Shown here: one piece after another, positions 2,397 to 20,263 of the stretch
Layout of the letters: every line of letters begins with the position of its first letter
How positions within the stretch are numbered: position 1 is the first letter of the stretch
DNA from: a virus
Direction: 5' to 3' (one strand)
Virus record (IMG/VR): IMGVR_UViG_3300025132_000342
Location: 1-22,346 of that record
Length of the DNA: 22,346 nt
Notes under the pieces: generated by a model
What the model saw: only the letters and a program-made list of their open reading frames with translations
What the model was told of the DNA's origin: nothing
The model's database searches: none
Position numbers and translations under genes: made by a program

Positions 2397-5300
2397 TTAT
2401 TTACTTTGTGTTTCTTCTAACCCATATGCTTTTATTATTTTTTTAAGTTCCTCAACAGAAGCACCTTCGTCTTTCATTTTCTGAACTTCCTGTCTCATTC
2501 TTTCTTCAATACCTTTATATTGCTTGTAATATTTTTTAATCTGTTCTCTGGGTACCTCGTTATTTTTCAAATATTCAAGAATCTGTTCTTGCGCCTCCTC
2601 TATCTTTTCCTCTCTATCTATCCTATTTTCTTTTTGATAATACTGATTCGACATATATTTATTTATATCTTTATATAATGGTATTAAACCTACACTCCCT
2701 AATACTTGAAGAAGCGAAACATTTTTTAATCTTTCTCTATATTTCTCTTTTGTACTTTCTTTTTCACTCTTTTCTATACGCTGCAAGTTACCCCATGCAC
2801 GTGTTGCTATTTTAGATACAGGACCTAGAGGACCTGAAAAGCTATGGATTAATAACTCAGGTAGACTTTTGTTTTGTAAATCTTCCTGGCTCAATATATT
2901 AAAAGTTAATGCATCAGTGAATCTATCATACTCTTTTTGTTTTACAGTAATCTCCTCCTCACCAAACCTTTTTTTTGTAAGAAACTTTAAATTTTCCTCA
3001 ATAAGTTTTTCTTTATCATCAGCATCTTTAAATTGCTCTTCTAACTTTTTTCTGATTTCATCCACTTCCTTTTGTTGTTCTTCTGCTATTTTAAAAGGAT
3101 CTTCACCCTCTCTAAAATCATCAAGATAAGGTTTATTAATATACTCTTCTATACCTAAACCTATCATAGAGCGAGGTACATTACCAAGTCCCCTCTGTGT
3201 TATAAGAGTGAGCATAGACCCTGCTAGCTGACGAACTAATAGTAAACCGTAGTTTACTTCCTTTTCCTTTCTCTTATCATCTGGATATAAAAAATCAAGA
3301 TTCTTCTCAATAAGTTTTTCTTTATCATCAGCATCTTTAAATTGCTCTTCTAACTGTTTTCTCATTTCTTCTCTCGCTTTATCCACCTCCTTTTGATACT
3401 CTTCCTCTCTTTCCTCTTCTGTATCTCCAAAAAGTAAACTTGCTAGTGGAGCTAGAACATAAGAATCAAAGAAAGATTTTGCAAAAGTATATGCTGATAC
3501 ATACGCTGTCATTCTCCCTGTTATACCAGCGAGAGTAGCGGCTGCTTGTGATTTTGAAATCTCCCCTTTTCTCGATAAATTTAAGACAGCATTTCTAGCG
3601 GTAACATATTCATTAAGAGCAAAGCTTGCTAAATAAGAGTTAACTGTTTTATATGCTGCTACATAGGAAGCATCGTCTTTTGTGATAACATTTTTTGGTA
3701 CTACATTAAAAGGATTCCTACTGTTAGTCATCTTCACACTTTCCTGATCCGCATATTTTGTAGCATTTTCTCTAGCCTCCTTAAACTCTGGACCTAAATA
3801 TTTAGAAGTACCATCAGCTATCTCCTGCATATCTTTAGCTGTTAAACTTATACCCGTTGAAGCTTTAAAGCTTCTAGCAAAACTACCAAACCACATAGGC
3901 CTTGCAATCAACTTATCCCCACTTGTTATTAATTGATCGGCTAATAAATCTGAAATTAATTTTATCTGCTTCGGCCCAAACTGTGTCATCCTACTTAAGC
4001 GTTCTAATATAATATGTTCTTTTTGCTGTACTGTATTAGTGGTTTTTGATAAATTAGCGTCCACCATTTTACTAGATAAATTTTGACCGCCATAATTTTT
4101 CATAGTCTCCTTACTATTTAAAGCCATCATAGCTTTATACCCTTGATTACCCATAGAGAATTGAGCAAAACTTTTCATAGCCTTACCAAAGTCTTTAGGG
4201 TTCGTCATAGCATAAGATAAATTACTCACAATCTCGGCGGCAGATCTAGGCACCGAACCTAAAGTTGCACGATACCCTAGCCTTACACCTTCGTTTATTA
4301 TACGACTTAGTGGCGTACCTGTACCCAGAGCTACCTCAAAGACACCGCTATTTACTTCATTTACAACACTTTGTAAAGCAAGTATTAATTGCTTTTGGTT
4401 GTTTGTACTGTTAGGGTTATCAAGAATCTCCTTCGTTAATTCTTTTATTGTATTATCAACAACACGTAAAGCATCTGTTACATGATAGTCAAGTAAAGTT
4501 TGAACAGCTCCTCTCTTCGTAGAAGATATAGGATCAAAGTTTATTGGTTTTGCACCGCCTTTTCTTTCTATTAACGTTTGAGATTTTGTTGAAGGTCTGG
4601 TAAATTTCTCTTGTTGAGCTGTATAATCTTTTTTAGCATCCTTATCATTCATTAAAACCTCATGATGCATATAGTTACTTATAGGTTTTATTCCTGTACC
4701 TCTAATAACTGTCGCAGTCCAGTTAGCTTTTTGCTCCATAGAAGCAGCTTCATCAATAAGTTTCAAAGCTTTCTTCTCTTTACGACTCATGGCATTTTCA
4801 ATCTTATTCATATCTATCTTCTCATCCCCATAGATGTTGTCATCAGTGTAGTTTTCTTTAATTTCCCTTAAAACTTTTTTATCTATCTTACTTGTTAAAG
4901 GAGACTTTATAGTTTCATTAATAAAATCTAAAGCTGATGCTACCTGCTTACTATCTGGATTAGATTCAAACTCTCTTTGTAACCTGTAAGTTTGAACTAA
5001 ATATTTAGAACGCTTTACTTTTTTTACTGACTTTAAAGTAGTAGGTAATAATCCTTGAGATAATAAAACCTCAGCTTTATCTAACTTATCTGTTACATTA
5101 AACTTTAAATCAGATTGATAAGCACTATAAGCAGTAGCTAATTTACCAAAGGTGTTATCGTATATTGTCTTATCATTAAAGTTTCCAAACACATCATCTA
5201 CCGCTGTAGTCATAGTACCACGTAAAGACTGTTGTTGTTGCGTCTTCGACCCACTCAAAGTCCAAAGACTTTTTAATCCTCCATAAATAGTAGAGAAAGC

Positions 5301-8300
5301 CATTCTTAAACTTCTTTTTTTAGATCTAGTATCTACAATATTTTTTATTTTTTTCTTAGACCTATTAACTTCTACCTTATTCATGATGGTATTAGCTAAA
5401 GCAGGCATATACCCTTTGTTTATATTTTCTTTAACTCGACTTAAGTTATCCACCATAGTATAATCTTTGGTGCCATCCTTCTTTGTTACAACTAAACCAT
5501 CAATATCTTCTTTGGTAAGATTATTTAACTCACGAGCTAAATTTTGTGCATCAGTAAATTTAGAAACGTTTTTTAAATTTATTTTATTTTCTAATACATC
5601 CTTTAAAAGTTTTTGTCCCTCTTCCTCTGCCTTCTTATTAGCCTCCTTCTTTTGTTCAATCAGATATTCAATACGACTTGTGATTGCTTTAGACTCTATA
5701 TCTTCTTTATCTTTCACCTCTTCCAGGGCAGCTTCTAGTTCTTCTAAAGTATTTTTATTACTAACTCCTTTAGGAGTATCAGACACTTCATTCTCTGTGA
5801 TGACAGCATCTATAATCTTTCCCGCCTGTTCTATTACTTCTCCTGATTCCGCTAAATCTCGTAACACTTTTTTGCTTTGACCAAACTGTGTAACTAAGTC
5901 TATATATGAATCAAGTTGACTATCAGGAATTACCTCTGGGTTTAATGTAAAGAGTTCTCTAAGAACACTAAGTAAACTATTATCAAAAGTTACTTTAGCT
6001 TTTAAATTCTTTAATGCTTTTCTTCTTTTTTTATCAGCATTATCCATCTTACCTTCTACCTCCGCTGCCTCCAATGTTTGCTCTACATAATCTTGGAAGT
6101 TTTCTACCTGGGTAGTATTTAAAAGATTAAGAGACAATGCTTTTTTAATTAAATTCTCTGCAGTCTTCGCTGATATTTTACCATCTTTAGCTAGTTTATT
6201 TATAGAGGATGCTAAATCTTTCGCCGCATCCTTATAACTTTTCGTAGCTTCTCTAGCTGCTCTAGCCTCCAATTTAATCTGGTCTTTAAGAGCGGTCTTC
6301 TCTTTTACTGTAACCTTTGTATCCTTTGGTGTACCTATTATTTTCTTCGGTGATGGTGGGTCTGTTTTCTTTTTCGTTTTAATTTTAACTCTCCCTTTAA
6401 AATTTGTTATCTTCTCATATCTCTTTTTACCAAAGGAAACTTTTGCTTTAGTTTTTTTCTTTTTAATATTTTGTTTAGCTTCTTTTATTTGAGCCTTCGT
6501 TTCTTTAATCTCACTCTTTATATCTCCTAGTATTTTATTTTGATATGCCTGCTTACCGTTCTTTAAAATATCAATAATTTCATTTCTAATATCTTGATCC
6601 GAGAAGCCATGGTCATACCCTAAAACATCACTTAACCCTCCATTCGTTCCAAGATTTTCAGCAGCCTCTTCTACACTTACCCCTCTCTTACTTGTGAGTG
6701 CTGGAGATATATCTTGATTTGTCCCTACTTTACCACCAGTCTCATTACGTGCAGACTCTGGTGTTATCTTATCCATATTTTCTGCTATTTGATAATAAGG
6801 ATTCTCTTCGGTTAATGTAGTTAATTGTCTTTCTAGTTCCTTTAGCTTGCCCTCTAAAATATTAAGGTTACTCTCTTCTCCTTCTGCTTTACGCTGCTCC
6901 GCCTCGTCTATATACTCTTGTGTACCTTCTTTCTCCGCTTCTTTTCTTTGCTTAACTTCTTCTTTAAGCTCTAAATCTTCTTTAATTTTATCTTCTTTTA
7001 ATTTTAAGTTAAGATTAATTAATTTTTGTTTACCCTCTGGGAAGGCTGCTTTTTCTCTAGGGTCAGGTACTTCTTCGCCTCTATCTAAAGCATCTTTCAT
7101 TCCTTGTAATTCCTTATCAACATTAGACCTAGTCTTTACATCTCTACTCTTATACCAATCAGATTTTTTTATTTTATTAATAACTTTCTCTATGGTTTCT
7201 ACAGTAAGAGCCACCCCTTCTAATGCTGTGTCCCATACTTGAACTGGTATAATGGTACTCAGCGTTCCTTTACCCTTGAGTTTACCTTCACGTATTTTAT
7301 CCGCTAAACTTACTTCCTTCTCCTCTGTCTTCTTAGTTTCATCTTGGATTTCTTCTGTTGTCTCTGGCGTTTCGGGAGGGGTCCTAACGTCTCCTTCTCC
7401 CACTTCTCCGCTATCTTCGGTAGATTCTGGTACATCCACCTTCTTTGGGCTTGGCTTTTGAATGGCATCTTTATCTTTTGTTTTAGTTTCTACTAAAGCA
7501 TCTAGCTCTGCTTCTATTTCTTTCATTCTAGCTTTCTGTGCTGTTACTAGATTTTCATTTTTATTTTGTATCTCTGTAGCTACTCTATTGTATTCTACTA
7601 TTAAGTCAAAAGCTTTAGCTTTATTTTCTACATCATTAGGAATCTCTTCCATTACACCAATTACAGTTTTGAATTGGTCCATATAAAACTTAGCATCCTT
7701 CTTACTCATCTTCCCTTTTAAGATTTCCATCTTTAAAGTTTTGATCATACTGGACTGCAGCTTAGGGCTATCAGACATAAAGTGTAATAGCTCTAACATA
7801 TCAGGTGTCATCTGTACACTTTGTATTCCATCCTTTAACATCTTAGGAGCAGTCATAGCAGTAGACATTAACGCACCTCCTATAGCTTCTAATATCGCAC
7901 CTTCAGCAATTTGAGAGAATACTTCTTTCCAGTTTTTAGGTAGTTCAAACATAGTAGTCCCGCTATTATTATTGTATGCGGTTTTTACTAATTGGTCAAC
8001 AACCTCTTGACTTCCCCCTGTTATACCTTCTGTCAAAGTACCCTTCGAGATTTTAACAACACCGTTAGCTAACAAACTTTCCGTCTCTTCAGCTACCAGT
8101 CTTTTCCATGTTGATACAGGTACCTTTTTTCCTCCTACCTTTTTAACTACCCTGCCTAGTACGTTTTTAAACATACCCTTACCTATCTGACTTGTAGTAA
8201 ATATAGTCTCTAAACCTGCTCTCTCTAGTATCGCTTGCATAGTGCCTATTAACCCTCCAACAATAAGTAAATCATGTAAAGGCATCTTTTCATAGTTAGG

Positions 8301-10382
8301 ATTATTTACCCACTCTTCCGCTACTGAATCAAAAACTTGAGTAGCCATAGCTACTGTCCCAACGATTGGTCCAGCTGCATTTAAAAGCATAGCGGGTAAG
8401 GATCTGAACACCCCTGTCGTACCTGTATAAAGCATACTATTCTCAGGGTTATTTATAAAGTCATCTTTAGTTGCAAAGCTATCAGTGAAAGAACCTTCTA
8501 GAACTTCCCTAACTATTTTTATTCTCTTCTTACGATCAAGGTCTTTAACGTCAGCATATTTCTTTATAGCTTCCGCTTTATCCTTCTCACCGTATGCTTC
8601 CAATAGAGTTTCTAATAACAAGAACTGACCTTCATCTAATGTGGCATCTAGTGTTTCTAACAAAGTATATATACCAGATAAAATATCTTCTATACCAGCG
8701 AGAAAACTTTTAGCTAACGAAGCAGTAAAAGTACCTAGATTTTCTTGTGTTCTAGCTTTATCTCTTATACTTATACCTACAGCTAAATTAATTTCTTTTA
8801 ATATAGATTCTTCATCCCTTATTTGTGCAACAACCTTTTTGTATTCATCTATCAAAGAGTTAGCTAACTCTATCTGTGCTACAGTAGGAGGAGTATTTTG
8901 TGTGGTAATTAATTTTTCGAGATCATTAGATTTTTTAACAATATCATTATAAGAAACCATTAGCCCTTCAATCTTAGCTGCACTGTCTGTACTAATTTTT
9001 TCATAAGCCTCTGGTGTAAATACACCAGGTGATTCTTTTATTATATCTACAAGCGGAGCCTCTGTATCTTCTACAGCTCTACTTACAATAAAATCTTCAA
9101 TAGCTTTTATTTGGCTTTGAGCATACTCATCAGACGATCCTATAGCAGAATCTAATAAATCTCCTGATACTTTTAAAGCACCCTTCGCAGGTATTACAAA
9201 ATCTGTCCAATCATAATCAGTCCATTCTGGAGACATATCAATAGTTAAACCTTGATCATCTTCACTTAAAGAGGAATTAATAATAAGCTTATCCCCTTGA
9301 ATATCAACCTCAATACCCATGTCTCCATAGTTGAGTTCTATTTGGTCCGCTATTTGTTCAGGAGTATAGTTGTAATTAGAACCATCCCACTGTAAATCAA
9401 TGATATTTTCTTCACCTATTTTATCAAGAAAAGCTTCTCTTCTTTCTTGAAATTTATCGTCATAGTCTTTCTTAATAAAATACTCAGGACCCTTTGCATC
9501 AACACTAACTTTCTTATCCCACTCCTCACGTAATTCCTTTAACTCTTTATCGCTAAGCTTTCTAACATTAGGATCTACTTCATCCCATCCACCTTCTTTA
9601 TATCTACTGAGAAAATTACTTGTAGTCATCTTCCCTTCTTCAACTAAACGTTTAGCTCTCTCATACTGAGTAGCTTTTTCTTGGTAGTCTTTAACATCTT
9701 CAATGTATTCCTCTACACTTTCAATAGTTAAGTCAGGGTATTTATTTTTTTTATCTATGATTCTACCAGCTACAGTGTTAGCTAAGGCTTTAGCTTTATC
9801 GAGTAGGTCAGCTAGTTTTCTATTTTTTTTCTTATCCGAATATACCGTTACTTCTTCAACGTCCTGTTCCTTGATTTTCTTCTTCTTATCCTTCTTCTTC
9901 TTAGTATCGTCTATAGGTTCTTCAACAACTTGTTCGGCTTTAATATCCTCATCACCTGTACCACCTTCATCTTTACCTTCTTTTGTTTTATCTCGGTCTT
10001 TCGTTACACGAATACCTGTTGTTTTTTTAAACTGCTGTTTACCAAACTTCTTTTTCTTCTTCTTCTTACGTTTACCTTTGTCGTTTGCTAAAACAGCCGA
10101 TAAGCCAGTAAGACCCTCCTCTTGTTCGGTATCGGATCCCGTATCTTCCTTTTCCGAAGTACGTTGAGATTCGCCTTTTTTTTTTACTTTATCCTGGAAG
10201 GACTCACGAGTATATCTATCTTTAAAAGTTTCATCGGTATTACTAATCCAATCAAACATCTGAGAGGAATAGTCTTCTCGCTGCATATTCTCCTTAAATT
10301 TTTCTGGAGAATATCTTTTAGAAAATGAATCGTCAGTCTTACTAACCCATGTATATAAATCGTCTAAGTATTCTTTTGCCAT
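2397..10382 (-). CDS. Giant putative internal virion / DNA-ejection protein (T7 gp16 position)
   Basis: A 2661-residue, mostly helical, Lys/Glu-rich protein and the last gene of the leftward structural operon. In order: a tandem repeat at residues 8-33 and 41-66 (W, TD.[ST]F, RY and F aligned); a low-complexity segment with two poly-Lys runs (about 104-112, 161-169); helical segments; a more hydrophobic part around 640-850; a Pro/Glu/Thr-rich acidic linker near 970-1040; a conserved-looking stretch at about 1206-1282 (NETGGKVGTNQDISP) like those in large polyvalent phage proteins; and a helical C-terminus with a duplicated EEQFKDADDKEKLIE block. I see no transglycosylase, protease or RNA polymerase motif. 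Its place after the gp14- and gp15-like genes suggests a protein packaged in the head and ejected with the DNA; T7 gp16 has about 1300 residues. A polyvalent effector protein is the main alternative. The start follows an 11-base gap. Confidence 0.75.
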   Translation of the reverse strand: MAKEYLDDLYTWVSKTDDSFSKRYSPEKFKENMQREDYSSQMFDWISNTDETFKDRYTRESFQDKVKKKGESQRTSEKEDTGSDTEQEEGLTGLSAVLANDKGKRKKKKKKKFGKQQFKKTTGIRVTKDRDKTKEGKDEGGTGDEDIKAEQVVEEPIDDTKKKKDKKKKIKEQDVEEVTVYSDKKKNRKLADLLDKAKALANTVAGRIIDKKNKYPDLTIESVEEYIEDVKDYQEKATQYERAKRLVEEGKMTTSNFLSRYKEGGWDEVDPNVRKLSDKELKELREEWDKKVSVDAKGPEYFIKKDYDDKFQERREAFLDKIGEENIIDLQWDGSNYNYTPEQIADQIELNYGDMGIEVDIQGDKLIINSSLSEDDQGLTIDMSPEWTDYDWTDFVIPAKGALKVSGDLLDSAIGSSDEYAQSQIKAIEDFIVSRAVEDTEAPLVDIIKESPGVFTPEAYEKISTDSAAKIEGLMVSYNDIVKKSNDLEKLITTQNTPPTVAQIELANSLIDEYKKVVAQIRDEESILKEINLAVGISIRDKARTQENLGTFTASLAKSFLAGIEDILSGIYTLLETLDATLDEGQFLLLETLLEAYGEKDKAEAIKKYADVKDLDRKKRIKIVREVLEGSFTDSFATKDDFINNPENSMLYTGTTGVFRSLPAMLLNAAGPIVGTVAMATQVFDSVAEEWVNNPNYEKMPLHDLLIVGGLIGTMQAILERAGLETIFTTSQIGKGMFKNVLGRVVKKVGGKKVPVSTWKRLVAEETESLLANGVVKISKGTLTEGITGGSQEVVDQLVKTAYNNNSGTTMFELPKNWKEVFSQIAEGAILEAIGGALMSTAMTAPKMLKDGIQSVQMTPDMLELLHFMSDSPKLQSSMIKTLKMEILKGKMSKKDAKFYMDQFKTVIGVMEEIPNDVENKAKAFDLIVEYNRVATEIQNKNENLVTAQKARMKEIEAELDALVETKTKDKDAIQKPSPKKVDVPESTEDSGEVGEGDVRTPPETPETTEEIQDETKKTEEKEVSLADKIREGKLKGKGTLSTIIPVQVWDTALEGVALTVETIEKVINKIKKSDWYKSRDVKTRSNVDKELQGMKDALDRGEEVPDPREKAAFPEGKQKLINLNLKLKEDKIKEDLELKEEVKQRKEAEKEGTQEYIDEAEQRKAEGEESNLNILEGKLKELERQLTTLTEENPYYQIAENMDKITPESARNETGGKVGTNQDISPALTSKRGVSVEEAAENLGTNGGLSDVLGYDHGFSDQDIRNEIIDILKNGKQAYQNKILGDIKSEIKETKAQIKEAKQNIKKKKTKAKVSFGKKRYEKITNFKGRVKIKTKKKTDPPSPKKIIGTPKDTKVTVKEKTALKDQIKLEARAAREATKSYKDAAKDLASSINKLAKDGKISAKTAENLIKKALSLNLLNTTQVENFQDYVEQTLEAAEVEGKMDNADKKRRKALKNLKAKVTFDNSLLSVLRELFTLNPEVIPDSQLDSYIDLVTQFGQSKKVLRDLAESGEVIEQAGKIIDAVITENEVSDTPKGVSNKNTLEELEAALEEVKDKEDIESKAITSRIEYLIEQKKEANKKAEEEGQKLLKDVLENKINLKNVSKFTDAQNLARELNNLTKEDIDGLVVTKKDGTKDYTMVDNLSRVKENINKGYMPALANTIMNKVEVNRSKKKIKNIVDTRSKKRSLRMAFSTIYGGLKSLWTLSGSKTQQQQSLRGTMTTAVDDVFGNFNDKTIYDNTFGKLATAYSAYQSDLKFNVTDKLDKAEVLLSQGLLPTTLKSVKKVKRSKYLVQTYRLQREFESNPDSKQVASALDFINETIKSPLTSKIDKKVLREIKENYTDDNIYGDEKIDMNKIENAMSRKEKKALKLIDEAASMEQKANWTATVIRGTGIKPISNYMHHEVLMNDKDAKKDYTAQQEKFTRPSTKSQTLIERKGGAKPINFDPISSTKRGAVQTLLDYHVTDALRVVDNTIKELTKEILDNPNSTNNQKQLILALQSVVNEVNSGVFEVALGTGTPLSRIINEGVRLGYRATLGSVPRSAAEIVSNLSYAMTNPKDFGKAMKSFAQFSMGNQGYKAMMALNSKETMKNYGGQNLSSKMVDANLSKTTNTVQQKEHIILERLSRMTQFGPKQIKLISDLLADQLITSGDKLIARPMWFGSFARSFKASTGISLTAKDMQEIADGTSKYLGPEFKEARENATKYADQESVKMTNSRNPFNVVPKNVITKDDASYVAAYKTVNSYLASFALNEYVTARNAVLNLSRKGEISKSQAAATLAGITGRMTAYVSAYTFAKSFFDSYVLAPLASLLFGDTEEEREEEYQKEVDKAREEMRKQLEEQFKDADDKEKLIEKNLDFLYPDDKRKEKEVNYGLLLVRQLAGSMLTLITQRGLGNVPRSMIGLGIEEYINKPYLDDFREGEDPFKIAEEQQKEVDEIRKKLEEQFKDADDKEKLIEENLKFLTKKRFGEEEITVKQKEYDRFTDALTFNILSQEDLQNKSLPELLIHSFSGPLGPVSKIATRAWGNLQRIEKSEKESTKEKYRERLKNVSLLQVLGSVGLIPLYKDINKYMSNQYYQKENRIDREEKIEEAQEQILEYLKNNEVPREQIKKYYKQYKGIEERMRQEVQKMKDEGASVEELKKIIKAYGLEETQSK
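2997..3355 (-). repeat. Pair of identical 50-bp direct repeats inside the giant gene
   Basis: Bases 2997-3046 and 3306-3355 are identical. The offset is 309 bases, exactly 103 codons, so the reading frame is kept. They encode the block EEQFKDADDKEKLIE near residues 2343-2359 and 2446-2462. Similarity weakens quickly outside the 50 bases at DNA level, while the proteins stay similar for some residues on both sides (EVD, then RK and QLEEQ or KLEEQ; NLDFL and NLKFL). That points to a recent duplication or a gene-conversion event in a coiled-coil region. Recombination between the copies would delete 103 codons in frame. Confidence 0.95.
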
Positions 10383-10393
10383 TTGTATATTTT

Positions 10394-11917
10394 TTATGGT
10401 GCTACAAAGTAAGTACCAAGTAATCCTGCTGCTTTAAAACTATCATGAAAAAGTTGAGTTGAATTTCTATTTGGCGATGCATCCTGTACAAAAGCAGAAA
10501 AACTTTTAATGTTAACAGGATTATCCATATCTATTATTGCTAGTGTTGGCTTATCTGTATAAGACTGACCCCTTACATCCCTTTTTTGTATTGCGTCTTT
10601 AATCGTCCATGTATTGTTAGCTGGATCATACTCGGTATAATATGAACCTTTTATAGCTTTAACCAGAGAGTCCATTCTAGTCTCATAATCATCTTTTTGC
10701 TCAGGCGTAGGATTGTTAGCTGGATTTATACCTTCTACTATTTGTGTTAACTCTATTGCTAAAGCTGCGTCACCTGTAGTTCTGTTAGAGCGACCTCCAC
10801 TAAAAGACATTAGTTTAGTTTTTACTGTTTGGCTATCATCTAATTTACTCAGAAGAATTTCTCTTGCAAAACCAAATACATTTTCTTTCTGCTCATCACT
10901 CAGTTCCGCCTCATATAATTCATAATCATTGGGTTCAAAAATAATTATATTATTCTCAGCTAAAGATTTTCCTTCTTTTTTTAATTTAGCATCTAACGCT
11001 TCATGTGCTGCTCTAGTACCTGTCTCATACTTTGTTCCATTAGGTGTTTGACCATACTCACTACCTTGCTCTGCTAAACGCCTAGCCAATCCTGCATAAT
11101 CCGTATCGGTTCCCATTGCCATAAGATAACTGTTCATTAAATCATTATCTCCTTTTATTCTACTATACTCATACTCCCATTCTTGAACAGTTAACCCGTC
11201 TTTTATTACGTCACTTACAATATAGTTACCTAACTCATCAGCTGTTTCAGTAGCTAATTCATCTAGTTGAAACTTGTCTATCTGTTGAGTTATTTTTACA
11301 CTTAAATTTTTTAAAGATTGAGCCTCTCCAATAATATTACCGTTGTTATCTTTTCTAATTAAACCTACCGATCCGTAACTACTTGCGTTATTATTACTCA
11401 TATCAGCCACGACATCAATACCATCTAAATTTACATATCCTAACGCACTGTTACGTAAATCTCTTTCGAGAAAAGAACTCTCATCTTTCTGAATCCTCTC
11501 TGTAGATACTTTATAAACTCCATCGTAAGTTTCAGCGATGTTTTTAAATAACTTCGCACCTGATTTAATATTATGAGAAGCCATACTATACTCGTTCTCT
11601 GTAATAAGCCCTTGTTTTAATAACTGATTAGCGTCCGCTAAATCCGAACCTAAATTCTGACCAGTTTGAATAGCTTTTTGTTGCAGGTCAGGAGCCTCAT
11701 AATCCCCCATATCCTGCAACTTCTCCTGTTGTTTACGATAGTTTTTTTCTATCTTAGCTTTTCTTCGTGCTCTATCATCACGAATTGAATCAACAGTATC
11801 TGTAATTTTTTTAGCCTCCGCGCCCCAATCAATTCTTTGTCTTGGATCAATTCTTTGATATACGCTAAAATCTTGATCTTTTCGAGCAACGGTACTTGTA
11901 TCTTTTATTGTAGCCAT
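10394..11917 (-). CDS. Putative internal virion protein (T7 gp15 position)
   Basis: A 507-residue soluble, mostly helical protein. Its N-terminus is polar, followed by a highly basic helix at about residues 44-70 (RARRKAKIEKNYRKQQEKL). Next comes a segment around 95-125 (LLKQGLITENEYSMASHNIK) of the kind seen in gp15-like internal core proteins, then alternating helices with few Cys and no recognised enzyme motif. I do not recognise the family from sequence alone. The assignment rests on order: it follows the gp14-like gene by 18 bases and precedes the giant gp16-like gene by 11. In T7, gp15 forms a tube with gp16 that spans the cell envelope during DNA entry. A scaffold-like or tail-cargo role is an alternative. 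Confidence 0.65.
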   Translation of the reverse strand: MATIKDTSTVARKDQDFSVYQRIDPRQRIDWGAEAKKITDTVDSIRDDRARRKAKIEKNYRKQQEKLQDMGDYEAPDLQQKAIQTGQNLGSDLADANQLLKQGLITENEYSMASHNIKSGAKLFKNIAETYDGVYKVSTERIQKDESSFLERDLRNSALGYVNLDGIDVVADMSNNNASSYGSVGLIRKDNNGNIIGEAQSLKNLSVKITQQIDKFQLDELATETADELGNYIVSDVIKDGLTVQEWEYEYSRIKGDNDLMNSYLMAMGTDTDYAGLARRLAEQGSEYGQTPNGTKYETGTRAAHEALDAKLKKEGKSLAENNIIIFEPNDYELYEAELSDEQKENVFGFAREILLSKLDDSQTVKTKLMSFSGGRSNRTTGDAALAIELTQIVEGINPANNPTPEQKDDYETRMDSLVKAIKGSYYTEYDPANNTWTIKDAIQKRDVRGQSYTDKPTLAIIDMDNPVNIKSFSAFVQDASPNRNSTQLFHDSFKAAGLLGTYFVAP

Positions 11918-11935
11918 AATTTATTTATCTTAATC

Positions 11936-12673
11936 CTATTTCCACGTAAACCCAGCACCACCACCTAAGTAAGCTGCAGAATTGGCATCATATTCCTTTC
12001 CTAAATACTTCCAGTATTCTTCCTTACTTAATTCCTGTGCCCACTGCGCATCAGACATACCACTTGGTTTTGATTTTGCATACTTCTTCGCTAGTTTTGA
12101 TCCCTTTCTACCAGCCTTATCTTTGGTAAATAAAGGTACCGTTTCACTTACAGAAGAGATAGTATCTGTTACACCTTGAATACCGCTAGAAATACTTTGT
12201 GCTCTCAGTATCTCAGCGTCTTGTTTTTCCAGTGCCTTATCTCTAGCCATATCTGTATACATAGCTATCATGGTATCGTCTTGACGGGTCTTAGCGTCTG
12301 CTTTCATTTTATCTAAAGCAAACATATCTTGACCCATGTCCGCTGTAGTTTGTTGTCTTCCCTGCGTAACTTGAGCACCTAACCCTGGAGTCAAAGAAGC
12401 TATGTTTCTTTGGTCCCCTTGTGTAACCATATCCATAACAGTCTTGACATCTTGAGCGGAACCTTCTTGCTTTTGTCTGTATGCCTCCATAGGCACAGAA
12501 AGTTTAGAGTAGCGATCAATCTCTGCTTGAGCTGTCGCTTTTTTCATAAGGTCGTCTTGTTTTTTCTGAGCATCTGCTGCCCTATCTTTTTGTTTTTCCG
12601 CTTCTGAAAAGGACATAGCTGCACTAGCTACCCCTCCAACTACTCCTAATACCGCTGATGTTATTGCTGCCAT
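11936..12673 (-). CDS. Putative internal virion protein with N-terminal membrane helix (T7 gp14-like)
   Basis: A 245-residue protein. Residues 3-20 (ITSAVLGVVGGVASAAMS) form a small-residue-rich hydrophobic helix. After it comes a long Ala/Gln/Lys/Asp-rich coiled coil (about 24-160) and a basic C-terminal part ending in a Gly-rich tail (GGGAGFTWK). This layout is typical of T7 gp14-type internal virion proteins, which are ejected first and insert in the host outer membrane. The gene starts one base after the stop of the GNAT-like gene and is followed 18 bases later by the 507-residue gene, as gp14 stands between gp13 and gp15. The N-terminal helix lacks a signal peptidase site with the usual features, so secretion is less likely. 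The stop is TAG. Confidence 0.75.
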   Translation of the reverse strand: MAAITSAVLGVVGGVASAAMSFSEAEKQKDRAADAQKKQDDLMKKATAQAEIDRYSKLSVPMEAYRQKQEGSAQDVKTVMDMVTQGDQRNIASLTPGLGAQVTQGRQQTTADMGQDMFALDKMKADAKTRQDDTMIAMYTDMARDKALEKQDAEILRAQSISSGIQGVTDTISSVSETVPLFTKDKAGRKGSKLAKKYAKSKPSGMSDAQWAQELSKEEYWKYLGKEYDANSAAYLGGGAGFTWK

Positions 12674-12674
12674 A

Positions 12675-13085
12675 CTATATTTTTTTTATCATTTCTTGGT
12701 TATAACTACTAGCCGCTATAAACCCTACTTTTTTATATGTATCTATTAAAGGTTTATTTTTAATTAAAGCATATATATATTTCATTCCTAATAACTCCGC
12801 TTTATTACTTATTGTATTTATCAATAACTCTAAAGCCTCTTTTCTTTTTACTCTATCTTTATAATTTATATTAGATATAATCCAATCGCACCATATTGCC
12901 TTTGAATTAGTAATATACATAAAACCTGCACATACTGCTATATCTCCATCATAAACTATAAATCCACCTTTACCATTGTCAGGTAGAAAGTCTTTTAACG
13001 GTGGTGACCACCTCCAATCTCTCCACCATCCACACAGAATATTTTCATAATCTGTTTCTTTAAGCGGTATTATATTTAATTGCAT
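12675..13085 (-). CDS. GNAT-fold protein, probably catalytically dead (T7 gp13 position)
   Basis: A 136-residue protein with the outline of a GNAT acetyltransferase. A strand-rich core (about residues 41-72: GFIVYDGDIAVCAGFMYITN, AIWCDWIIS) is followed by a long helix (80-99) and the strand-helix pair MKYIYALIKNKPLIDTYKKVGF (101-122), where the YKKVGF ending matches GNAT motif B. The acetyl-CoA pyrophosphate loop (Q/R-x-x-G-x-G/A) expected before the long helix is replaced by a sequence with no glycine (YKDRVKRKEALE). This argues against ordinary acetyl transfer. T7 gp13, of nearly the same length, is assigned from memory to the same fold group and stands directly before gp14, as here. A structural or assembly role is therefore more likely than modification of a host protein. 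A possible -7 promoter element lies just upstream. Confidence 0.75.
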   Translation of the reverse strand: MQLNIIPLKETDYENILCGWWRDWRWSPPLKDFLPDNGKGGFIVYDGDIAVCAGFMYITNSKAIWCDWIISNINYKDRVKRKEALELLINTISNKAELLGMKYIYALIKNKPLIDTYKKVGFIAASSYNQEMIKKI

Positions 13086-13087
13086 TA

Positions 13088-13123
13088 ATGCAAAGATAAT
13101 AAATTCTATGGAAAACTTTGCAT
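13088..13123. repeat. Inverted repeat ATGCAAAG / CTTTGCAT in the 276-136 gene gap
   Basis: ATGCAAAG at 13088-13095 and CTTTGCAT at 13116-13123 are perfect 8-base inverted repeats around a 20-base spacer containing the stop codon of the 276-residue gene. The left arm overlaps the candidate -7 element. It could form a weak hairpin in the operon mRNA or mark a regulatory site. There is no T-tract, so it is not a standard terminator. Confidence 0.4.
13091..13098 (-). promoter_or_regulatory. Candidate Bacteroidota -7 promoter element before the GNAT-like gene
   Basis: Read on the - strand, this is TATCTTTG followed by C, a full match to the TAnnTTTGC -7 element known for the primary sigma factor of Bacteroidota. 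It lies in the 20-base gap between the 276-residue gene and the GNAT-like gene, with only five bases between the element and the ATG. No clear -33 TTTG is seen at the usual distance. If it is active, the transcript would be leaderless or nearly so. The match is short and could be chance. Confidence 0.35.
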
Positions 13124-13936
13124 AATACTTGACCCTACCGAAAACAACTCTACTGCTGTAGTATCATTATTATTTAAAGTAAAGTGCATATAATATCCTC
13201 TAGCTCCATGAGACTCTGCTATAGCGTTTTTAATAAAAAATATAAAATCTCCATTAGCAGGTGGTGTTCCGTTAGGAGTAAAAGCTGTACAGTCTATGGT
13301 TACAGACGCAGGAGTTACCACGCCCGCAACAGATGTTGTACTTTGGTTTGTTATTGCTGTTACTGTTCCCGACTTTACTACAGGGTTAAATGTAGTGGGA
13401 GGGGTAGGTGCAGATGTACTTTGCCAATATACAATATCTCCAATACTTAATATACTATCTATATTAACATTAAATGTAATAACCACTGCAGTAAGTGGAC
13501 CTGATACCGTTACAGATGTACCAATACCATTAGCTGATCTATCTTTAAAATTAACTGTATCTTCATTTTCTCTCAAGAACGAAAACCATTCTCCTTCTTT
13601 TTGTACAAAATATGTAGAAAGCATAGAGCCTGTACTTAAATCTGTATACAAAGAAGTACACGCCCAAGCGGCACTACTCTCATAAGACATTGTCTTAAAA
13701 AGTTTTATAGTGCTAGGTTGTACATTAAATACCGAAGTAATACTTGAGGAATACTGTACTCCATAATAATTATTACGAATGGGATTAGTGTTGTGTCTAT
13801 ATAAATTTCCGCCACTCCAAGAATAAAAATACCCATTCATACCTATCATATAATCAGGTAAATAAGAGTAAAATGAAGGCCATCCTTTAGCATCTTCACT
13901 ATAAGATATTGTATACGCTGCGTTTGTATTTGCCAT
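13106..13936 (-). CDS. Putative phage tail / host-contact structural protein
   Basis: A 276-residue beta-rich protein. The N-terminal part (about residues 10-95) has a pattern I associate with structural proteins of marine and crAss-like phages: SYSEDAKGWPSFYSYLPDYM, then a YFYSWSGGNLYRHN segment, RNNYYGVQYSS and a later FKTMSYE. The middle (about 140-235) contains a Gly/Thr-rich module with GDIVYW and NGDFIFF. It ends with an ARGYYMHFTLNNND segment. These features suggest a strand-rich tail protein, perhaps part of the tail tip or of a fibre base. The gene lies 12 bases after the 327-residue gene and just before the ejection-protein cassette. No enzyme motif is present. An exact role such as plug, fibre or receptor binding cannot be chosen from sequence alone. 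Confidence 0.7.
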   Translation of the reverse strand: MANTNAAYTISYSEDAKGWPSFYSYLPDYMIGMNGYFYSWSGGNLYRHNTNPIRNNYYGVQYSSSITSVFNVQPSTIKLFKTMSYESSAAWACTSLYTDLSTGSMLSTYFVQKEGEWFSFLRENEDTVNFKDRSANGIGTSVTVSGPLTAVVITFNVNIDSILSIGDIVYWQSTSAPTPPTTFNPVVKSGTVTAITNQSTTSVAGVVTPASVTIDCTAFTPNGTPPANGDFIFFIKNAIAESHGARGYYMHFTLNNNDTTAVELFSVGSSIMQSFP

Positions 13937-14947: not shown

Positions 14948-17900
14948 TTAACATGTTCCTTCTGCTATTACTACTCCTTGAGCACCTATTTGAATCCATC
15001 TCTTTGGTAATATCGAAGGAGAGACCGCGCTAACAATATAAAAGCCTGACGTTTTAAACGGTGCCCCACAATTAATAGTAGAATAAACCACATCTGCAAT
15101 AGTAGGAATAGACCCATTCCCTAAGAAAGAGAATATATTATTATTTCCTTCTTGCGGGCTAGTTACATCTGTAGTGCATGCGGCTTGCGCGGTGTCTCTA
15201 TAAGGACCCATAAATATATTTTTACATGGTACCACACAAGTACAACATACATCTTGTGCAGTACTTGCAACTCCACCAATTATAGGAGGACAGTAACACA
15301 CCTCTTGTGAACTAATAAGCCTTAAATCCCATATTAAATATAAATAATTATTAACGTCAGGAATAGTAAAAGTTGTTTCCGTAGCTTCATATATATCTGG
15401 AGCAGGATTACTAATTGGAGAAACTTCAGAGCTTGCACTTAATAAAGATTGTAAGTCTGCTGAAGTATTTAAATATTCTGTATTAGAAGAGAGTATTCTA
15501 AACTTATGATAGTTAGGATTAAAATCAAAAGTATCTGTATTAATTTTTTCTGTTTTTAATGTTATATCCGTACCTGTATAAGGGAATACACCTAATGATC
15601 TAACCCCTGTATTAGAAACGTATTCAGAAGCTTGAATCGTAGTTAAGTTTGCAGGAGAAATATCTCCGAATGGACTAATAGTAGTACCATCTGTCCATTG
15701 ATATTTAGTATGAATAGATTGCCCCGTATAGTTATTACTAGATAAAACAACTTGAATTACTGTTATATTTTTTATAGGAGGACACTCTACTGTTATTTCA
15801 TAGCTAGATGCTTCGTTTGGTGTTATAAGAACATTACATGTAGTAGGAGTATTTGTAGTTTTATTAAAAGTTAAAGTTCCAGAACTGGTAGCGTTTGAAA
15901 CTGTAGCTACCGTCCCTCCACTCCATGTGATAGTAATATTAATACTCCCTGATGTAATAATATATGGAATATCAATCGTGCCTACCACTAACCCTAAGTT
16001 TACATCATAAGTAACACTGGCCTCAGAATTTTGATGTTGACTACGCTGACCGCAAGGCACTATAGTAGGCGGCACAGGTACAGCAATTAAGTTTGTTCCT
16101 AATACATACTCGTTCATATAAGGGTCATACCCTCCTAATTTCTGTGTAGTCAGTTGAGCAATAAAAGTGTCTCTAAACCATGAGTTCATATTAGCTTGTG
16201 ATATAACTTGTATCTGATCGTTTTTTGCGCTAGCTCCTCTTAAGTTTATAACCGCCCCTCTTTTAGCATCTGTAAAAAACATATCATAACCCCAAGAAAC
16301 AAAACTTTCAGGATTAAAACTTATACCATACTCTTCTATTCTTGCTATTTGTGTTCCTAATATTGTAGGCTTAGATACAATAGCACCCCCTCCTGTAGCA
16401 TCGCTAATAAGACTTTTATCTGCTAACACATATGTTATTCTATCTTCTTGTAAAGTAAGTATATCTGTTTCTCGTGCGTGCAATAATTGTATAGGTCCAA
16501 AGACAGTTTCACAATCTTTAAAATTAGCTAGCCCTAAATTAAATTCATTAAGATTATTAACATTAGCAGAGCTTACATAGATACCACTATAAGTCATACC
16601 AGCAAATCTATCGGCCTCTTTAAAATCTTGTTGTGATACAGCTAATGTTCTTTCTCCTAATTGAAAATATTTTGTTATAGGACTATCATATATTCTATAA
16701 CTTTCTACACCATTTCCAAATGTATAACAATTATATGCATCTAATATTGTTATTAAAGGCTGTGTAGCAGTTTGGTCTTGCGCTACTAAGGGGTCAGCTA
16801 AAGAATAAGCAGGAGGAGTAGTAGTAAATTTTTGTTTTGCCATATGAAATTTCTGACCCCCTGGAGTGTAAGATTTTATCTCCAATAAATTAGATGCGTC
16901 AAAAAATAAATTTGGATCTGGTTCTGTTGGCTCTGTTTCAAAAACAAATACTCCAGCGGTTCTTCTTACTTCAATTTCTAAATTTAAATGTCCATAAAAA
17001 ACACCCATATTATCCCACGAAACCTCATCACATGTAACTAAAGAACTAGCTACCATAAAAAACATTTTACCGTTAGATAATTGCCCTAACTGTGCTACGA
17101 GTTCGTTGTCTGTAGCGGAAGGGGGAGGTAAAAATTCTGAACCATTGAATGGTATAGGTTGTTGTAATATAGGGTCAAAACTAATATCTAAACCATCTAT
17201 GTTACTAACCCCTGGGGAGTTAGTTTGCATTTGACTTTGTAAATCATCTCCAATAGCCCAAGCATGAAAATTAGGATAGTTAGTAGAAGAAGTAAAAGTT
17301 TTATTATAATATATACCTTTCGCACAATCACTCCCCCCTCTCCATGTATTTGTTTTAATCACAATAGTTGATCCTGCAGGAATATCATACGGTACTCCAT
17401 TTGCATCATTAACGGAGTAGGTAGTAATAGCCTCTGCTCCTGCTGGTAAGTTTATAGCAGCTATTAAACCTGGTGTTATACCTCCAAACAATACTCCCGC
17501 CACTGCAGACCATACATAAGTAGTGTCTACATCGGTTTGTATATGCATGTTGCCATACATATAATTAGCTGCCTCGTCTTGTTCTATACTCCATCCGTCA
17601 GGCTTTAATAACATATATAATCCTGCTAGAGAAAATTCTGTAATTCCTTTTCCAGAAAAAGATTGTATATCTAATATTACCGACTTAGCTTCACTTAATA
17701 CAGGTCCTAATGAATCTTGTTTAACATATAATATATCCCCTGTCTTTAATATATTTTGATTTTGACCTTCGAGTCTAAACCATACTTGCCCTGGGTCATT
17801 ATTTATTGCTACAGGTAAACCTGAGTTTCCCTCTGCACTTCCATCTTGTTGGTAAAATACATTAGAGAAAACAGTGTTATAATCTCCTTGACTTGGCTTT

Positions 17901-20263
17901 ACTACAAATTTATAATGCGTAGCCCAATATGGTGGCACATTATTTAAATTAACTTTTATTTTATTTCTAAACACTGATTTATTTGGTTTAAAATAAACAG
18001 TATTTTCTGTGCTTGTAAGAACTGTAGAAGCTCTAGCATATTCATCCATATATACTATACCAACCTCATAATCTCGGTTAGAATGTAAGCTGCTAGTTTC
18101 AAAGTCTAAAGCGTAAGCTGCGCTAGATCCCGATGCAAGAAAATTATAATATCTATAAGCTTCTGCATAATTACCTGAGCCAGTACCATCGGCAGAAAAA
18201 TATTTTGTAGCAGGAACTTGAAGAGAAAATGTTGTACCCCCTGCCGCGGGTGGAGTGTATAAAAATCCTTGAGCAGGACAAATCGCAGGAGTATTGTTAA
18301 CAGCATTTATTATGTATGGAATATCCTCTACATCTAATCCTGCATAATCATTATTTGCAGTTAAAGCTAATTCTAATTCAGTGTCACTTACAATTTGAAC
18401 GATTGTAGTTTGTTGAGATGTACTACCATTTATAACTACATCACCAACTTGAATAGGAGGCGAGAGAGTATTAAAGTTCACAGTAGTGTCAGTTAAAAAA
18501 GTTGGGGTTGCATCTGTAGTTGTACTATTAAGTAGCTGTTGTCCGCCACAATCAGTTGGAAAAGGGATAGTGTCTAAAAATGTACCAACTACAGGGAGGC
18601 ATGTGTTTGTAATACCCCCTGTAACTAAAGTAAAATTAGTCCCTGTCATAGGGGTTTCAGCTGTGTTATAAAATTTATCACTTAACGTCCCTCCTAATGC
18701 ACTGTTGTTACAAGGATATAAATCTTGAACTAGATAACTATCATTTGGAGGACCAAAACCTTGGGATAAACTCCCTCCAATTCTGTTTTTAAATTCCTGA
18801 GAGGTAAGCATTGCTTCAACACTTTGATATTCTTGAGGACAAATAAAGGTCATTGAAATAAAAAAGGGAGAAGGCTGCTGCTGTGTTACTCCTGCGCATG
18901 AACCAGCTAAATTAACATTACAGTTTGAAAATACATCTGTAGTTTGCTGTATACTAAATTGAAAACTAATCGTGGTGTTCTGTGCAATAGGAGTATCTAG
19001 GCCCGCTAAATCAAATGTTATCTTTGAATCAACCTCTGTGTGTGGACCACCTACCGTATCAATAGTATAAGCATCGCCTGTAGAAGTTACAGGCGCAGCT
19101 AAAACTTCACCTGCTATAGGCTCGCTAATTCCATTTAAACTGTAATCTAAAGCAATAAATGGACCGTCTTCAGTTTTTCTTAAATCATAACCATCTACAA
19201 TGTTTCCATATACCAACCTGTTCCCTTGAATAGTTTGGGCTTTAGCTAATCTAGGAACATTATCATACTGTCGTAATAACTCATCAGCCCCTAGTGTAGT
19301 ATATATTTCACTATTAGTAAATTGAATTGTAACAAAATTATTATCAGCCCAACCTTGATCTTCTTTTATATATCTTTTGATAACATATATAACGTTAGAT
19401 ATACTTTGTTTATATAATAAATCTACTTCTTTTACTCTTTTGCTTCCTGTAGAAAAAGTAACATTACACCCATTATATTTATTTTCCATTCCTTGATTCC
19501 AGAAATTCTGTAAACTTAATTGAAAAAAGTTGGGTTGAAAGGCAGGGTCAGAAAATAAAGAGGTAGCACTATACTGTCCATCCTCATATCTATATCTATA
19601 TGCAAAAGACAAAAACCTTGTCTCCATATAATTTTCTTCTCCTGCAAGCTGTAATAATTCTACGTGAGGAGAACCTAAAGGAGCAATCTGCCCAGTAGTA
19701 TAATCTTCAAAACCTGGCGGCTTTACTATTACACTTACATCCTCTTCCTCCAGTACAGTATCTAGTCCTCCAGTAGGTTCATCATAATTTCTAGTCACAT
19801 TTATTACTCTAGGAGGATTATAATCATCGGTAAAAAATAATAAGTTTTCAATCTTCGATACTCCTGTAACAAGATATTTAGAATTAAAATTTAAAACTTC
19901 TGTACTAACTACGTGATAAATTAAAGTATTACTATTAGTATTAAAAGACACTATCATGTCTACGACACCTGTACTAGGAGAATTAGGGTTATTTTCATCA
20001 TGTACAAACCAATAAAGAGTTTCGTTTATACCATCTTCAAAACAGCCTATAGTCCTTGCATTAGCAGTTAAATTAGCACCCCCATACTGAAGGTTAGCTA
20101 ATAAAGAGTTGCCTTTAGAATTTTCTACAGCTCCTATCTCAGTATTTTCTGTAGAGCCTAAACGCACGTTAAGTGCATCAATATACTCACCTGAACTAAT
20201 TAAGCGTTCGTCCACGCTTTTATTCATTCTGCCCAGTATAAAATTTGTTAAAGTTATTGGCAT
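14948..20263 (-). CDS. Very large tail / stabilization-type structural protein (T7 gp12 position, crAss muzzle-like)
   Basis: A 1771-residue beta-rich protein. The N-terminus (residues 7-60: FILGRMNKSVDERLISSGEY, a DALNVRLGS stretch, then AVENSKGN) is the opening I associate with large tail or packaged-DNA stabilization proteins of marine podophages and crAss-like phages. FAYRYRYEDGQYSATSLFSDP (219-240) is a second such landmark. Residues about 580-655 hold an inserted beta module with VGDVVINGST. Residues about 1320-1400 (SWGYDMFFTDAKRGAVINL, an IQVIS segment, then GGYDPYMNEYVLG) look like propeller-type strands. About 1410-1500 resembles an Ig-like sandwich. The last 115 residues are Cys-rich (C1656, 1658, 1673, 1674, 1676, 1680, 1696, 1732, 1771). 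T7 gp12 has 794 residues, so this is over twice as long. The gene follows the 306-residue gene by one base (TAGGATG). It probably forms the tail nozzle or muzzle and carries host-contact domains. Confidence 0.75.
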   Translation of the reverse strand: MPITLTNFILGRMNKSVDERLISSGEYIDALNVRLGSTENTEIGAVENSKGNSLLANLQYGGANLTANARTIGCFEDGINETLYWFVHDENNPNSPSTGVVDMIVSFNTNSNTLIYHVVSTEVLNFNSKYLVTGVSKIENLLFFTDDYNPPRVINVTRNYDEPTGGLDTVLEEEDVSVIVKPPGFEDYTTGQIAPLGSPHVELLQLAGEENYMETRFLSFAYRYRYEDGQYSATSLFSDPAFQPNFFQLSLQNFWNQGMENKYNGCNVTFSTGSKRVKEVDLLYKQSISNVIYVIKRYIKEDQGWADNNFVTIQFTNSEIYTTLGADELLRQYDNVPRLAKAQTIQGNRLVYGNIVDGYDLRKTEDGPFIALDYSLNGISEPIAGEVLAAPVTSTGDAYTIDTVGGPHTEVDSKITFDLAGLDTPIAQNTTISFQFSIQQTTDVFSNCNVNLAGSCAGVTQQQPSPFFISMTFICPQEYQSVEAMLTSQEFKNRIGGSLSQGFGPPNDSYLVQDLYPCNNSALGGTLSDKFYNTAETPMTGTNFTLVTGGITNTCLPVVGTFLDTIPFPTDCGGQQLLNSTTTDATPTFLTDTTVNFNTLSPPIQVGDVVINGSTSQQTTIVQIVSDTELELALTANNDYAGLDVEDIPYIINAVNNTPAICPAQGFLYTPPAAGGTTFSLQVPATKYFSADGTGSGNYAEAYRYYNFLASGSSAAYALDFETSSLHSNRDYEVGIVYMDEYARASTVLTSTENTVYFKPNKSVFRNKIKVNLNNVPPYWATHYKFVVKPSQGDYNTVFSNVFYQQDGSAEGNSGLPVAINNDPGQVWFRLEGQNQNILKTGDILYVKQDSLGPVLSEAKSVILDIQSFSGKGITEFSLAGLYMLLKPDGWSIEQDEAANYMYGNMHIQTDVDTTYVWSAVAGVLFGGITPGLIAAINLPAGAEAITTYSVNDANGVPYDIPAGSTIVIKTNTWRGGSDCAKGIYYNKTFTSSTNYPNFHAWAIGDDLQSQMQTNSPGVSNIDGLDISFDPILQQPIPFNGSEFLPPPSATDNELVAQLGQLSNGKMFFMVASSLVTCDEVSWDNMGVFYGHLNLEIEVRRTAGVFVFETEPTEPDPNLFFDASNLLEIKSYTPGGQKFHMAKQKFTTTPPAYSLADPLVAQDQTATQPLITILDAYNCYTFGNGVESYRIYDSPITKYFQLGERTLAVSQQDFKEADRFAGMTYSGIYVSSANVNNLNEFNLGLANFKDCETVFGPIQLLHARETDILTLQEDRITYVLADKSLISDATGGGAIVSKPTILGTQIARIEEYGISFNPESFVSWGYDMFFTDAKRGAVINLRGASAKNDQIQVISQANMNSWFRDTFIAQLTTQKLGGYDPYMNEYVLGTNLIAVPVPPTIVPCGQRSQHQNSEASVTYDVNLGLVVGTIDIPYIITSGSINITITWSGGTVATVSNATSSGTLTFNKTTNTPTTCNVLITPNEASSYEITVECPPIKNITVIQVVLSSNNYTGQSIHTKYQWTDGTTISPFGDISPANLTTIQASEYVSNTGVRSLGVFPYTGTDITLKTEKINTDTFDFNPNYHKFRILSSNTEYLNTSADLQSLLSASSEVSPISNPAPDIYEATETTFTIPDVNNYLYLIWDLRLISSQEVCYCPPIIGGVASTAQDVCCTCVVPCKNIFMGPYRDTAQAACTTDVTSPQEGNNNIFSFLGNGSIPTIADVVYSTINCGAPFKTSGFYIVSAVSPSILPKRWIQIGAQGVVIAEGTC

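Follow-up and report, generated by a model that had tools for sequence, protein, structure and literature searches.

A protein of 136 residues encoded at the position of T7 gene 13 in a flavophage-type podovirus is predicted to have a GNAT fold without the acetyl-CoA loop; most likely, a former enzyme fold has been reused in building the virus particle. Its gene (12675..13085, minus strand, ATG start; PHROG 17252), designated here as the gp13-like gene, lies in a window of 22,346 nt, the whole stretch of DNA analyzed, which corresponds to positions 1 to 22,346 of IMG/VR record IMGVR_UViG_3300025132_000342. The more specific proposal that the protein is a pseudoenzyme that assists in the assembly of the ejection proteins without catalysis has, in our estimate, an even chance of being correct, and we favor this presumed role over an enzymatic role or a permanent structural one. 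T7 gene 13 is among the less understood T7 genes. The presence of a GNAT-like protein at its position is not new, as it was described for cobaviruses (PMC6775973) and is noted in the record of epsilon15 gp13. New in this study are the assignment of PHROG 17252 to the GNATs at this position, the family-wide absence of the loop, the invariant residue Arg81, and conflicting data on the presence of the protein in virions.

The gp13-like gene and its family

The open reading frame at 12675..13085 is a real gene and not a chance one, because dN/dS-type estimates are low and relatives occur in more than 200 contigs. The estimates against four relatives were approximately 0.10–0.17 (NG86 dN/dS pairs of 0.085/0.65, 0.12/0.84, 0.20/2.0, and 0.20/1.16), indicating purifying selection. 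The first scan recovered relatives in 211 viral contigs, and isolated flavophages also encode them; in bacterial genomes scanned with one divergent member, relatives were not found.

Profile searches of Pfam and NCBIfam with the window protein returned no family at an E-value of 1. In PHROGs, the protein matched family 17252, labeled 'unknown function', over its whole length (residues 8–135, E = 4.6e-39), and a second match, to an acetyltransferase family, was weak (E = 0.0013). Among the relatives, MW202828 alone carries an acetyltransferase name in GenBank. The expectation in the preliminary description that automatic annotation would call this protein an acetyltransferase was therefore not borne out, apart from that one GenBank entry. 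PHROG 17252, with members in Pachyviridae, Pervagoviridae, Elemovirus, and related flavophages, comprises direct homologues that share the gene position and all lack the loop. Its members from isolates are 33–46% identical to the window protein, except for phi40:1 gp098, the identity of which is much lower.

Predicted GNAT fold

An AlphaFold2 model of the window protein, built from a 51-sequence alignment (pLDDT 92.7), has strands (b) and helices (a) in the GNAT order, b1-a1-a2-b2-b3-b4-a3-b5-a4-b7. Foldseek matched the model to 398 PDB chains at E ≤ 0.001, and among the matches listed all 50 were GNATs or complexes containing a GNAT. The best PDB chain in VIA-align was the N-acetyltransferase RimI of E. 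coli (5isv_A), which shares the fold with a Z of 16.0 and an rmsd of 2.1 Å over 128 residues. The segment MKYIYALIKNKPLIDTYKKVGF (residues 101–122; 12720..12785, minus strand), which had been recognized from the sequence as the last strand-helix unit of a GNAT, forms the b5-a4 unit of the model and places Tyr117 at the usual position of the general acid. The a1-a2 region (residues 20–41; 12963..13028, minus strand), with the pattern WW..W.W...LP..G.GG, is among the most conserved parts. The GNAT fold is thus confidently predicted by the model and its match to solved GNATs, and this part of the earlier observation is sound. Sequence searches of the PDB with family profiles retrieved no GNAT; the best match in one of these profile searches, a TPR-like repeat protein, looks like chance and was rejected.

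Loss of the acetyl-CoA loop

Active GNAT enzymes have a glycine-rich motif A loop, exemplified by RREGVA in 3jvn, and this loop and helix a3 carry the canonical CoA-binding motif. The window protein differs in having no such loop: as the preliminary description had stated, its place is taken by the b4-a3 segment NINYKDRVKRKEAL (residues 72–85; 12831..12872, minus strand), from which the motif A glycines are absent. In a profile alignment to the GNATs of cobaviruses, with their loop placed in turn against RREGVA, the canonical sequence in 3jvn, K76, E83, and L85 fall at the three motif positions, and the segment contains a four-residue insertion, R78–R81. Helix a3 begins at residue 78 of the model and is 21 residues long. 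The homologues carry approximately one additional helical turn, ending in Arg81, where the loop would be.

The pattern [QR]xxGx[GA] was found between residues 66 and 92 neither in the window protein nor in any of 127 distinct homologues, which include those of Cellulophaga, Flavobacterium, Tenacibaculum, and Maribacter phages; an intact loop is accordingly missing from the related phages as well. Position 83, which corresponds to the first glycine of the motif, is mostly E, K, D, or Q among the homologues, and position 85 is mostly I or L. Arg81 (codon at 12843..12845, minus strand) is invariant in 127/127 distinct homologues, and Asn72 is kept in 125/127. A tyrosine general acid in a4 is frequent among GNATs but not universal; in this family, Tyr117 is kept in 116 of the 127 homologues, throughout the clade of the window protein among others, and F or L replaces it in the other 11. 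Once the homologues had been clustered at 70% identity, conservation was approximately 2.3–2.7 bits in the loop and in helix a3, which placed them among the weaker parts, and was highest in the a1-a2 region and the b3-b4 turn (approximately 3.0–3.6 bits). The CoA-binding segment is expected to be among the best-conserved parts of an active GNAT. We take these sequence patterns to mean that the family as a whole has lost the canonical cofactor site.

Gene order in the cassette

All genes of the cassette discussed below lie on the minus strand of the window. In the direction of transcription, two smaller virion proteins are followed by a tail nozzle/muzzle-like virion protein of 1771 aa (14948..20263; phrog_14478, E = 1.2e-207), a 327-aa protein, and a 276-aa protein with a crAssvirus muzzle C-terminal domain (13106..13936; PF25729, E = 9.4e-14), which is encoded directly upstream of the gp13-like gene. 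The gp13-like gene is followed by those for a gp14-like internal virion protein of 245 aa (11936..12673), a gp15-like ejection protein of 507 aa (10394..11917), and a gp16-like giant ejection protein of 2661 aa (2397..10382). The corresponding order in T7 is 12-13-14-15-16, and the gp13 position ascribed to the gene in the preliminary description is correct.

The gp14-like protein has a hydrophobic N-terminus and matches phrog_13764 (E = 7.8e-07) and, at E = 0.0089, phrog_805, the family of T7 gp14; its profile comparison with T7-type gp14 is weak (P = 0.0026), and the alignment covers the hydrophobic N-terminus only. The gp15-like and gp16-like proteins were assigned by order and size. Their PHROGs matches, phrog_35506 (E = 5.2e-09) and phrog_32588 (E = 2e-64), respectively, are both of unknown function, and the 2661-aa protein had no Pfam match at an E-value of 0.01. 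The product of the last gene of the cassette was detected by MS/MS in phi18:3 and phi40:1. The coding sequence of the gp16-like counterpart in MW202828 reaches 11.6 kb. The muzzle C-terminal domain sits on its own open reading frame, separate from the 1771-aa nozzle/muzzle protein, and the two proteins share no significant BLAST similarity.

The gp13-like gene was present in 14/14 related records searched. It adjoins the muzzle C-terminal domain gene in 133 of 135 distinct loci, and the gp14-like gene follows it directly on the same strand in 123 of the 132 distinct loci for which the stretch is available, as counted with iterated profiles, which catch divergent gp14-like genes missed by a single BLAST query. 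Nine loci depart from this arrangement: those of Cellulophaga phages, of Gundel_1, and of contigs that a query with a Cellulophaga phage retrieved (Pachyviridae-type). Where the Cellulophaga exceptions are annotated, small reverse-strand genes separate the gp13-like from the gp14-like gene. Such inserts were seen in phi19:3, phi46:3, and phi13:2, and those of phi13:2 and phi19:3 include a tRNA-Cys. The gp13-like gene itself is reversed relative to its neighbors in phi19:3 and Gundel_1.

Two small genes near the start of the window lie on the plus strand. One (366-719) encodes a 117-aa stand-alone DnaA domain IV without the ATPase domain (Bac_DnaA_C, E = 3.5e-08). The other (1260-1616) encodes a 118-aa protein with the pattern CxxC...DFDH...CxxCH, which resembles an HNH endonuclease by eye and had no Pfam match at an E-value of 0.01.

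T7 gp13 and other GNATs at the same position

A model of T7 gp13 (PF11090 Phage_T7_Gp13, PHROG 308), built from 16 relatives (pLDDT 93.6), is likewise predicted to have a GNAT fold (Z 12.1 to the GNAT domain 4u5y), and again no loop is conserved. T7 gp13 itself reads RLSGKA at this place, but we do not regard the sequence as an intact loop, as the relatives, including close ones, do not have it. T7 gp13 and the window protein have in common their length, the predicted fold, the gene order, a 21-residue a3, the absence of a conserved loop, and basic residues early in a3. They differ in that T7 gp13 has no Tyr in a4, has other invariant residues, and shows no significant sequence or profile similarity to the window protein. 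The window protein did not match the PF11090 and phrog_308 profiles at an E-value of 1, and hhalign of the window family with T7 gp13, using narrow and wide alignments, gave a plausible register but no significant match (P-values of 0.15, 0.026, and 0.043). We do not claim membership in PF11090 because these profile-profile comparisons were never significant, and for the same reason fold and position are the basis of the comparison with T7. The two families may share descent within podoviruses or may each have recruited a GNAT independently.

Pfam labels the T7 gp13 family 'probable scaffold protein'. T7 gp13 is required for infection, and its location was not established as of a 2021 review (PMC8811829); according to the cobavirus paper, a part in virion morphogenesis has been suggested for it (PMC6775973), and it goes unmentioned in a 2024 paper on the T7 core structure.

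Other phage GNATs resemble the window protein to various degrees. The gene for epsilon15 gp13 likewise lies between gene 12 and the gene for the gp14 internal protein, and an HHpred match to the GNAT 3fbu_A is given in its record; however, the protein groups with the T7 gp13 sequence family (a relative, SPN1S, was found by search) and not with PHROG 17252. The cobavirus GNAT (SIO1 pc40, PHROG 1249) also adjoins internal virion proteins and was proposed to correspond to T7 gp13 (PMC6775973). It differs in passing Pfam Acetyltransf_1 and in having a loop of normal length, RGK[PK][AG]S in most. In the cobavirus GNATs that we inspected (L214:15268-15729 and relatives L221-L234), RGK[PK][AG]S or RHTKAG stands in place of RxxGxG/A, and judging from these motifs the cobavirus proteins at the gp13-like position may be partly degenerate too. 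Rac (LUZ19 gp28) is also a phage-encoded GNAT; unlike the gp13-like gene, its gene lies beside the RNA polymerase gene, and its predicted acetyl-CoA pocket is present and needed (PMC7552054).

Detection in virions

The preliminary description had proposed a virion assembly or structural part, and the proteomic data on relatives bear on both. In phi40:1, the product of a divergent homologue in the same gene position, gp098, is annotated 'structural protein, experimental MS/MS'; its homology is significant (phrog_17252, E = 3.5e-10; profile, E = 1.1e-12). On the other hand, phi18:3 gp116, a PHROG 17252 member (E = 4e-71) and a nearer relative of the window protein than gp098, is left 'hypothetical' and is not marked as MS/MS-detected in the deposited annotation, whereas the four genes before it and three of the late genes after it, including the gp14-like gene, are so marked. 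In the virion proteome of the T7-like phage phiPsa17, gp13 is missing, and gp14–16 and even the scaffold gp9 were detected (PMC4517105). As phage GroEL also turns up in virion preparations of phi38:1 (PMC13288928), being detected is not in itself proof that a protein is structural. The evidence for a structural part is divided between phages, and an assembly part fits better, since neither phi18:3 gp116 nor phiPsa17 gp13 is among the detected virion proteins. The virion data would be best explained by a protein that acts transiently in assembly and is carried over into particles to a variable extent.

Discussion

We suppose that the gp13-like protein, having no canonical acetyl-CoA pyrophosphate loop, most likely works by binding other proteins. 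It would be expressed late, together with the ejection proteins, and would aid the assembly or loading of the gp14-like, gp15-like, and gp16-like proteins onto the portal during head assembly; in mature virions it would persist in small quantities at most, or only in certain lineages. An assembly role is suggested by the fixed place of the gene between the nozzle/muzzle and gp14-like genes, by the GNAT-fold model of T7 gp13 without a conserved motif and its Pfam label, by the requirement for T7 gp13 in infection (PMC8811829) and its suggested part in morphogenesis (PMC6775973), and by the two virion data sets in which the protein was not detected. The structural annotation of phi40:1 gp098 and the non-significant profile homology to T7 gp13 count against it, as does the reversal of the gene in phi19:3 and Gundel_1, since an assembly factor would be expected to share expression with its partners.

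That reversal, together with the accessory genes inserted beside the gp13-like gene in other Pachyviridae, would suit an accessory, moron-like gene for host takeover that is located in the late cluster by chance. We consider this very improbable, as the position is kept in nearly all distinct loci, all the related records searched have the gene, and it is co-directional with the cassette except in those two phages. The MS/MS annotation of gp098, which is flanked by virion proteins on both sides, is what speaks for a true virion component, namely a minor internal or tail protein with a recycled fold that is ejected or retained with the core proteins. This reading deserves some weight but is rather unlikely given the unmarked gp116 of the nearer relative, the phiPsa17 proteome, the GroEL in phi38:1 preparations, and the silence of the 2024 T7 core paper on gp13.

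It is also unlikely that the protein has kept acyltransferase activity by means of a non-canonical cofactor site, in which Arg81 at the start of a3 would bind phosphate, and that it modifies a virion or host protein as Rac does. Such an enzyme would be consistent with the intact predicted fold, with Tyr117 at the general-acid position of most homologues, and with the strictly invariant Arg81 and nearly invariant Asn72, both near the expected location of the phosphates; moreover, the predicted acetyl-CoA site of LUZ19 Rac is needed for its host effect (PMC7552054). However, the loop glycines are missing in all members, their positions being taken mostly by E, K, D, or Q at 83 and by I or L at 85. 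This absence, the insertion ending in the invariant Arg81, the replacement of Tyr117 in 11 homologues, and a conservation that is lower in the loop and a3 than in the a1-a2 region and the b3-b4 turn all argue for a pseudoenzyme, against which the retention of Tyr117 in the clade of the window protein has to be set.

A broader form of the assembly-factor reading can be offered tentatively, and we hold it to be possible rather than probable. In short-tailed phages generally, a loop-less GNAT fold would serve in the assembly of the ejection proteins; gp13 of the T7 and epsilon15 type and the flavophage family would be deep relatives or convergent; lineages such as that of phi40:1 would have kept the protein in the particle; and Arg81 would mark a partner-binding site that replaced the cofactor site.

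Our results caution against listing gp13-like genes as acetyltransferase auxiliary metabolic genes. They also provide a concrete hypothesis, that a former enzyme now serves as an assembly factor, and point to isolates with proteomics, phi18:3 and phi40:1. An abundant group of marine flavophages would thereby have a counterpart of T7 gp13 with the same predicted fold, the cofactor loop being conserved in neither group.
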